This document shows positions 40,902 through 43,354 of a stretch of 43,355 nucleotides of DNA, in pieces. The notes below the pieces were generated by a model, which saw only the letters and a program-made list of their open reading frames with translations, made no database searches and was not told the origin of the DNA. Source of the DNA: Alphaproteobacteria bacterium (GTDB lineage Bacteria; Pseudomonadota; Alphaproteobacteria; UBA2136; UBA6156); assembly GCA_027483385.1 (NCBI GenBank), contig JAIXUT010000070.1, forward strand, positions 1 to 43,355, given 5' to 3'. How positions within the stretch are numbered: the stretch's first letter is position 1; every line of letters starts with the position of its first letter. Both the position numbers and the translations under genes were made by a program.

Positions 40902-41993
40902 TTAGGCTTTGGCCACAAAATGGTGCAGTGTTTGGAGCATACCAGCGTAGGCTTTCAGGCTCGCGGCTTCTAAGCTGTGGAGGCCATAGATGGGGGTGAC
41001 GATACACCCCAAACGCCCCTTAAACCCTGCGCTGCGGGCCTGTTCGGCGTCGGTGCCACCGCCTTCAAAGGTGCGGCGTTCAAAGCCAGCCTTAGTGCGT
41101 TCGGCGGCGGCTTCCAGTTCTTCCGTTAAGCTCTGGCTATACGGAAAACGCCCGGCCTTTTGCTTGATGACAAAGTTATTGATGTCATCCACTTCCTCAC
41201 CAATCGAGGTATCCACCGCAATGAAGTCGGTCATTTCGGGCCGTAGCACACTGGTGCCGCCCATGCCTGCTTCTTCGGCCGCACTCCAGAGCAAATCCAG
41301 GGTAAAGCGCGGGGTAATTTTTTGCGCCTTCATAAGTTCCAGCAAACTGAGTAACCCCGCGCAGCCAAGGGTGTTATCCAGCCAGCGGCCCCGAATGCTG
41401 CTGTGGGCTTCAGTAACCACCAATTGCGGTGCCAGCCACACCAGCTGACCAGTTTTAACCCCCAACTTCTGAAGGGTTTCCTTGCCGTTCTTTTTGGTGC
41501 AAGCAATGCAGGCATCGGGGCGCAGCCGAATGTGCTTCCATTTGTGCGCGCGCTTTTCAAAACCTTCGCCGCCCACACGGTGAATTGGGGTTTCGGTGTG
41601 GGTAATCACCCCCGCCAGCAGCCCTTTGGAGGTGGCGATGCTGGCGATGACGCCGTCCATCACGTGGCCAGGGTAAAGCCCGCCAATGGCACTAATTTTG
41701 ACGGTGCCATCGTCAAACAATTCATCGACCATCAGGCCAATGCGGTCGAGGTGCGCACCCAGGCCCACCACGCGGGCTTTGTCCTTACCCAGCACGGTAA
41801 TGCGCAGGGTGTCATCGGGCTGGCGATGGGTGATGTAGCCCAGCTTTTTGGCTTCGCGCACGACGTAGTCGGCCACTGCGCCCACCCGGTTGGTGGCGGC
41901 AGGGATTTGCAGCAGGGCTTCGGTGTGGTGCAGCGCCCGCGCCAGCAAGGGCGACGTTGGGACGATAGTTTTTTTGGGCGTATTTTTGGGCAT
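40902..41993 (-). CDS. M42-family aminopeptidase
   Basis: The 363-residue protein is a dinuclear metallo-aminopeptidase of family M42 (the FrvX/glutamyl aminopeptidase-like tetrahedral enzymes). Metal ligands and catalytic acids are visible in LGAHLDRIGLMV, RWLDNTLGCAGLL, SAAEEAGMGGTS (the Glu pair), AVDTSIG and YGLHSLEA. A basic stretch precedes the core (MPKNTPKKTIVP). It trims peptides after the proteasome-like proteases. M42 enzymes are better known from archaea and Firmicutes. It lies 14 bp downstream of pepA with no Shine-Dalgarno, so it probably depends on pepA translation. Confidence 0.9.
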   Translation of the reverse strand: MPKNTPKKTIVPTSPLLARALHHTEALLQIPAATNRVGAVADYVVREAKKLGYITHRQPDDTLRITVLGKDKARVVGLGAHLDRIGLMVDELFDDGTVKISAIGGLYPGHVMDGVIASIATSKGLLAGVITHTETPIHRVGGEGFEKRAHKWKHIRLRPDACIACTKKNGKETLQKLGVKTGQLVWLAPQLVVTEAHSSIRGRWLDNTLGCAGLLSLLELMKAQKITPRFTLDLLWSAAEEAGMGGTSVLRPEMTDFIAVDTSIGEEVDDINNFVIKQKAGRFPYSQSLTEELEAAAERTKAGFERRTFEGGGTDAEQARSAGFKGRLGCIVTPIYGLHSLEAASLKAYAGMLQTLHHFVAKA

Positions 41994-42007: not shown

Positions 42008-43354
42008 TTATGCAGGAATTTTACGCGGGCGGCCACGCTTGCCACCTGTGGCAGCTTTGGGTGCCACAACGCTGGCCGCAGTAATTTTGGCGGGACGGCC
42101 ACGGCGTTTGCCAACTTTGGCCGATGGGGCTTCTTGTAAGCCTTCCAGCCATTCCACCAGCAGGCGTTGGCCAAAGCCCGTTCCGCCCTTCAGGTGTTTA
42201 TTACCACCAATTTCAAATTTATCCGACCAAGCAACACTGGCAATATCGAGGTGTGCCCAAGGTGTTTTACCAACAAACCGTTTGATAAAGTTAGCGCCAA
42301 CTGAAGAGCCGCCTGCACCACCTGCACTGTCGTTACAGATATCGGCAACCTCACTTTTACTGATAAAACAATCGTCAGTAGGCATATTCCAAAGTTCTTC
42401 ACCGACACTAATTCCTGCTTTAAGTAATGCATTTCCAAGCGCATCCTTGTTGGTAAATAGCCCGCCATAACGGCCCCCTAAAGCTACACCAATCGCACCA
42501 GTCAGTGTCGCCAAATCTACCACCGCAGCGGGGGTAAATTTATCGATGGTGTAGGCCACCGCATCGGCCAGCACCAGGCGGCCTTCGGCGTCGGTGTGGC
42601 CAATTTCCACCGTGGTGCCGTTGTAGGCCGTATAGATACTATCCATCACAAACGGGGTGGTGCCAATCATGTTCATGGCGCACGCCATGGTGCCAACAAC
42701 ATTCACTTTGGCCTTGCGGGCAGCCAGGGCCTGCATGGCGCCCAGCACGGAGGCCGCACCCGACATATCAAACTTCATGCCGCGCATGCTGTTACCGGGC
42801 TTCACGTTATAGCCGCCAGTGTCGAACATAATCCCTTTCCCGACAATCGCGTAGGTGGGGGCATCTTTGCCCGCACCCTGGTAATGCATGGTGATGAGGC
42901 GGGGCTGGTCTTCGGGGGCGGCGGCGCCGCCAACGGCAAGCATGAGGTTGCAGCCCATTTTTTTGAGCTGCTTTTCATCAAACACCTCCACCTTCACACC
43001 AATCTTTTCAAGCTTCTTGGCAGCATCGGCCATGTACTGGGGGTTGGCCAGATTGGGCGGCGTGTTTTGCGCGGTACGGGTTAAGTCATTCGCGGCCAGC
43101 AGCTTTTGGGTATGCGGCCATTGCTCTTCAATTTCGCGCGCGCTGCGGGTGGATGTGAGAATGCTCAGTGCCTCAAAACGGGGGGCGTCGTGGTCCTTCA
43201 GTTCGGTTTTAAATTGGTCGAAGCGGTACATGGCCATGTGCACGCCTTCGGCCATTTTTAGCGCACAGGTTGGGGTGTTGGCTTCTAGTTCGCCGAGTGC
43301 TACGCAGGCTTCTTTCACGCCCATGGCATCGAGCACTTTGCCCAGCGCCAACCC
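42008..43354 (-). CDS. pepA: Leucyl aminopeptidase (M17) with AT-hook-like C-terminal tail, 5' truncated
   Basis: This is the C-terminal 448 residues of an M17 aminopeptidase, a hexameric di-metal enzyme that removes N-terminal residues from peptides. The frame is open at the window's right edge; the track start at 43351 is a TTG and not the real start. The catalytic core is complete: AIVGKGIMFDTGGYNVKPGN, MKFDMSGAASV, and TDAEGRLVLADAV with its metal-binding Asp and Glu and the catalytic Arg. The signature is GHTDAEGRL rather than NTDAEGRL. The family normally ends at TGFGQRLLVEWL. Here about 40 residues follow and contain KRRGRPAK and KRGRPRK, both AT-hook-like. A low-GC patch lies inside the gene. 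Confidence 0.93.
   Translation of the reverse strand, partial: GLALGKVLDAMGVKEACVALGELEANTPTCALKMAEGVHMAMYRFDQFKTELKDHDAPRFEALSILTSTRSAREIEEQWPHTQKLLAANDLTRTAQNTPPNLANPQYMADAAKKLEKIGVKVEVFDEKQLKKMGCNLMLAVGGAAAPEDQPRLITMHYQGAGKDAPTYAIVGKGIMFDTGGYNVKPGNSMRGMKFDMSGAASVLGAMQALAARKAKVNVVGTMACAMNMIGTTPFVMDSIYTAYNGTTVEIGHTDAEGRLVLADAVAYTIDKFTPAAVVDLATLTGAIGVALGGRYGGLFTNKDALGNALLKAGISVGEELWNMPTDDCFISKSEVADICNDSAGGAGGSSVGANFIKRFVGKTPWAHLDIASVAWSDKFEIGGNKHLKGGTGFGQRLLVEWLEGLQEAPSAKVGKRRGRPAKITAASVVAPKAATGGKRGRPRKIPA
42181..42480. other. Low-GC patch inside pepA
   Basis: Hand counts give about 45% GC over these 300 bases, with individual 60-base lines at 38-53%. The flanking lines are about 63% (42061-42120) and 68% (42541-42600). 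The frame is intact throughout and encodes conserved catalytic-domain sequence. The boundaries are approximate. Confidence 0.6.

Follow-up and report, generated by a model that had tools for sequence, protein, structure and literature searches.

A conserved C-terminal tail with two AT-hook-like motifs on the leucyl aminopeptidase of an alphaproteobacterial family

The window, by which we mean the whole 43,355-nt stretch of DNA analyzed, has at its end a gene for an M17 leucyl aminopeptidase (PepA). The sequence makes it probable that this is an ordinary enzyme of its family bearing a disordered, basic tail with two AT-hooks, and that the tail serves as a tether to AT-rich DNA. The first-pass annotation had described a C-terminal tail of about 40 residues with two RGRP motifs, and so it proved: the tail has 41 residues, and both of its motifs, KRRGRPAK and KRGRPRK, contain the RGRP core. 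The features are as follows.

42008-43354, minus strand: M17 leucyl aminopeptidase (PepA), 448 amino acids visible, 5' end truncated by the contig edge
42011-42133, minus strand: C-terminal tail, a 41-residue extension of the normal M17 sequence with a strongly basic composition (net charge, about +11)
42086-42109, minus strand: AT-hook-like motif 1, KRRGRPAK
42020-42040, minus strand: AT-hook-like motif 2, KRGRPRK
42008-42010, minus strand: stop codon TAA closing the tail
40902-41993, minus strand: gene for an M42-type aminopeptidase that immediately follows pepA, in the same orientation and outside the tail

Because the contig ends at 43355, the start of pepA is absent, and the listed start of the open reading frame (ORF) is not the true N terminus. 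At its other end the frame reads GFGQRLLVEWLEGLQ, then EAPSAKVGKRRGRPAKITAASVVAPKAATGGKRGRPRKIPA and the stop codon; the tail, EAPSAKVGKRRGRPAKITAASVVAPKAATGGKRGRPRKIPA, begins after VEWLEGLQ, the last conserved M17 residues. The body of the enzyme is that of an M17 peptidase. It scored 350.7 bits against the M17 catalytic domain in Pfam (PF00883; cut-off, 25), and the catalytic and metal-binding residues K, D, K, D, D, E, and R were invariant in the 16 aligned proteins, the window's included. We take these seven positions, matched by motif, to be K250, D255, K262, D273, D332, E334, and R336 of lens leucyl aminopeptidase. The M17 signature NTDAEGRL is HTDAEGRL or HTDAEGRM in the window's genus and in G015 (42575-42598, minus strand, in the window); the metal-binding D and E are retained.

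A first structure model, with 5 sequences, was poor (pLDDT, 45); a second, with 14 sequences, was usable. The model of the full-length PepA of a relative (locus L033, genome G003), computed as a monomer, had a pTM of 0.84, and most of its fold was confident. It resembled known M17 structures, among them that of E. coli PepA (1gyt), and thus has the two-domain M17 fold; for the Pseudomonas aeruginosa enzyme the TM-score, taken by target, was 0.84 to 0.86. The tail of the same protein had pLDDT values of 30 to 38 and is predicted to be disordered. By analogy with other M17 enzymes, PepA would form a hexamer.

An AT-hook is a GRP core with basic flanks, often with prolines (PMC11354804), and KRRGRPAK and KRGRPRK, each with a GRP core between basic residues, fit that description. 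Against the Pfam AT_hook model the window's hooks reached 12.1 bits, under the cut-off of 17.4. In a genome-wide search the PepA proteins of five relatives (G003, G005, G007, G009, and G010) exceeded the cut-off, G003 only if a neighboring hit was counted, and in whole-protein scans the same relatives' proteins also fell below it. That the window's hooks are short and score below the cut-off, as do those of several relatives, counts against the tether.

We asked, as the first-pass annotation had proposed, whether the tail and its RGRP cores are found in close relatives. The tail survived this check, being conserved in the family and specific to the lineage. A pepA gene was found in 10 of 11 family genomes, the exception being G004, which is 54% complete, and all 10 genes encode a tail. 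At least one RGRP core was present in nine tails and two cores in seven. The three exceptions to two cores are G002, with RGRK plus RGRP; G008, with a shortened tail and a single RGRP; and G006, with a degenerate tail in which only PGRPAAKQK is left. The hooks are therefore not strictly required. They are kept, however, while the identity of the family's PepA proteins to that of the window falls to 56 to 81%. The eight genomes that have hook 2, RGRPRK, use eight different codon strings for it, and the protein is the same in all; the Ala-rich linker between the hooks varies in both length and sequence and is little conserved. A core that stays fixed as RGRP in the protein, under changing codons and beside a drifting linker, suggests selection acting on the hooks and is the pattern expected of such selection.

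Outside the family, the PepA proteins of five sister families (f2 to f6; six aligned proteins) have no tail and end directly after the last helix. When the tail with its anchor was used as the query against 289 genomes of the class, the only matches at E ≤ 0.001 were G000 and G007. Against 399 genomes of the phylum the sole strong match was G000, and there were ten weak matches with E values from 0.0017 to 0.009. These genomes are samples, and only a limited set of candidates is scored by the first-look filter, so rare tails elsewhere are possible. Among the genomes sampled, and at the sensitivity used, the tail is family specific. Maximum-likelihood analysis of the core enzyme placed all ten family proteins in one clade (support, 100/99). 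With a single tailed clade, the simplest history is one gain, apparently in the family's common ancestor, followed by erosion in G006 and G008. A tandem-repeat origin of the tail was considered and rejected, since no array was found.

The pair of hooks is also unlikely to occur by chance. Two RGRP cores appeared in about 5 × 10^-5 of shuffles of the window's tail. For counts across a proteome we used the relative G007, whose genome is nearly closed (two contigs, about 1.5 Mb). Any RGRP occurred in 11 of its 1,549 predicted ORFs, and two occurred only in PepA; the ORFs were called mechanically, and some of the other RGRP-containing ones are not real genes. Conservation across the family is a stronger argument that the tail is real than these chance statistics.

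If the tail is a tether, each RGRP core would enter the AT-rich minor groove in the way that the hooks of WhiB7 and HMGA do. A hexamer, if formed, would offer up to 12 hooks and so bind polyvalently, and the enzyme could be held on AT-rich stretches of the chromosome and possibly bridge them. From the motif sequence and the analogy to WhiB7, CarD, and HMGA we infer a preference for AT-rich DNA over indiscriminate binding of DNA, RNA, or polyphosphate. As a suggestion only, the tail may keep the peptidase at the nucleoid; alternatively, it may add a tail-based grip to a PepA-like shaping of DNA at promoters or recombination sites. It is quite unlikely, though conceivable, that this housekeeping aminopeptidase, as a hexamer, has become a polyvalent nucleoid protein with up to 12 hooks that bridges AT-rich DNA, perhaps within a peptide-recycling chain with Lon and the neighboring M42 peptidase.

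The M42 gene was found in 6 of the 11 family genomes, adjoining pepA in all 6, and in none of 20 other genomes of the order and class (31 searched in total). In the window its product has a basic, Lys-containing N terminus, MPKNTPKK, and most of its relatives have N termini rich in Lys and Ala. A tight coupling between the tail and the M42 gene was rejected because the tail is present in G001, G002, G003, and G008, in which the search detected no M42 gene. Basic tails also occur on further proteins of this lineage. Lon (loci L165 to L181) has Lys-rich C-terminal tails across the whole order, longer in several family members than in the sister families. In G007, topoisomerase I has a tail rich in Lys and Ala, as do a transporter and a FadB-like enzyme (these G007 proteins were named by reading their sequences, without a family scan).

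Such tails are one ground for supposing that the PepA tail is a general polycation for RNA, ribosomes, or polyphosphate, and not for AT-rich DNA, along the lines proposed for proteases that alternate between DNA and polyphosphate. Besides Lon across the order, topoisomerase I, an RNase R-like protein, and the M42 neighbor have tails rich in Lys and Ala. Lon binds both DNA and polyphosphate (PMC7566177), and AT-hook-like motifs may bind RNA (PMC11354804). With a transporter and a FadB-like enzyme among the carriers, a basic tail alone is no proof of DNA binding. However, a polycation needs only charge, yet RGRP is kept letter for letter through synonymous codon changes while the Ala-rich linker drifts, and the Lys/Ala tails of the other proteins inspected do not repeat the RGRP motif. 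Basic tails are thus common in the lineage, but paired AT-hooks are, in the G007 genome scanned, special to PepA. We regard the polycation explanation as unlikely, though worth keeping in mind.

It is improbable that the tail is a functionless, nearly neutral, low-complexity extension favored by G+C-rich codon drift. On the side of this reading, RGRP is encoded by CGN GGN CGN CCN, the tailed loci have a G+C content of 0.52 to 0.61 versus 0.44 to 0.46 in the three sister-family loci measured, and the tail has degenerated in G006 and become shorter in G008. Nevertheless, the core residues are fixed across a large divergence despite third-position variation, two hooks persist, and only one ORF of G007 has the pair. 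Hardly credible is a localization or interaction signal that works without nucleic acid, for example one for docking a partner or one resembling a nuclear-import signal in a host: the M42 neighbor likewise occurred in no searched genome outside the family, and basic RGRP stretches can look like nuclear localization signals, but the tail is kept in the four genomes where no M42 gene was found, and a search of 21 genomes for an ATP/ADP translocase, a sign of energy parasitism, was empty, as it also was in the control genomes, so that this absence is unproven.

The tether to AT-rich DNA can be compared with known systems. PepA of E. coli (also XerB or CarP), with which the window's enzyme shares family and fold, is a hexameric, DNA-binding aminopeptidase that wraps about 230 bp at carAB; it lacks a canonical DNA-binding motif and contacts DNA through a surface groove and basic patches on the N-terminal domain (PMC6245113). 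The window's PepA differs in adding the C-terminal AT-hook tail. The first-pass annotation had suggested such a fused tail as a way, distinct from the globular surfaces of E. coli PepA, of placing the enzyme on AT-rich DNA, and a minor-groove tether distinct from the PepA body is still the likeliest reading. The net charge of the PepA N-terminal domain was similar in tailed proteins (−1 to +5) and tail-less ones (−2 to +7).

When the sequence of the G010 PepA tail was compared with the solved chains of the PDB, the one chain matched was Mycobacterium tuberculosis WhiB7, a weak match (E = 0.66) that aligned at the AT-hook. The hook of WhiB7 binds AT-rich DNA (PMC10432532). It is C-terminal, as in PepA, and its sequence, KRPRGRPRK, is identical to the G010 PepA hook and nearly identical to that of G008. 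However, WhiB7, a transcription factor of the Fe-S type that works with the sigma factor SigA, has a single hook, and the rest of the protein is unrelated to PepA. In CarD of Myxococcus xanthus the C-terminal tail is disordered, carries RGRP four times, and binds the AT-rich minor groove (PMC8156234). Like PepA, CarD has repeated RGRP hooks in a disordered C-terminal tail fused to an unrelated folded domain, but it regulates transcription globally and has an acidic region and four hooks, against the two of the peptidase. CarD still works when an H1-like basic tail is substituted (PMC8156234), which calls for caution, since there a basic disordered tail is enough. The tails of Lon and topoisomerase I in this lineage are, like that of PepA, basic C-terminal extensions on enzymes and probably disordered, and both enzymes are associated with DNA elsewhere. 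Their tails, in contrast, are Lys/Ala repeats without an AT-hook pair, and those of Lon are found across the order, whereas the PepA tail is found in one family.

AT-hooks are described as rare in bacteria (PMC8156234; PMC10432532), and those met in the literature searched were on transcription regulators. M17 enzymes and AT-hooks are each known; a search of open-access papers, judged by titles and abstracts, turned up no bacterial leucyl aminopeptidase that combines them. If the tether is real, a lineage-specific pair of hooks on a conserved metabolic enzyme would illustrate how an enzyme can acquire a grip on the minor groove. The enzyme so fused already moonlights on DNA in E. coli, and the tail would bear on the DNA role of PepA outside the enterobacteria.

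Several further observations were made. That the tail compensates for a loss of HU/IHF was considered and rejected, as the numbers of Pfam HU/IHF family proteins in the family genomes were like those of other Alphaproteobacteria. A predicted 102-amino-acid ORF of G007 (L061; contig C2, 283403-283711) has one AT-hook-like motif, GRGRPRK, and a hydrophobic C-terminal stretch; a 106-amino-acid frame of G001 matched by the AT_hook search bore no resemblance to it. The G+C richness of the tailed loci L007 to L011 and L032 to L035, relative to L013, L015, and L016, may have favored codons for Arg, Gly, and Pro. The region upstream of pepA in G007 ranked 87 of 1,116 upstream regions by A+T content, which is suggestive at most of an AT-rich target there.
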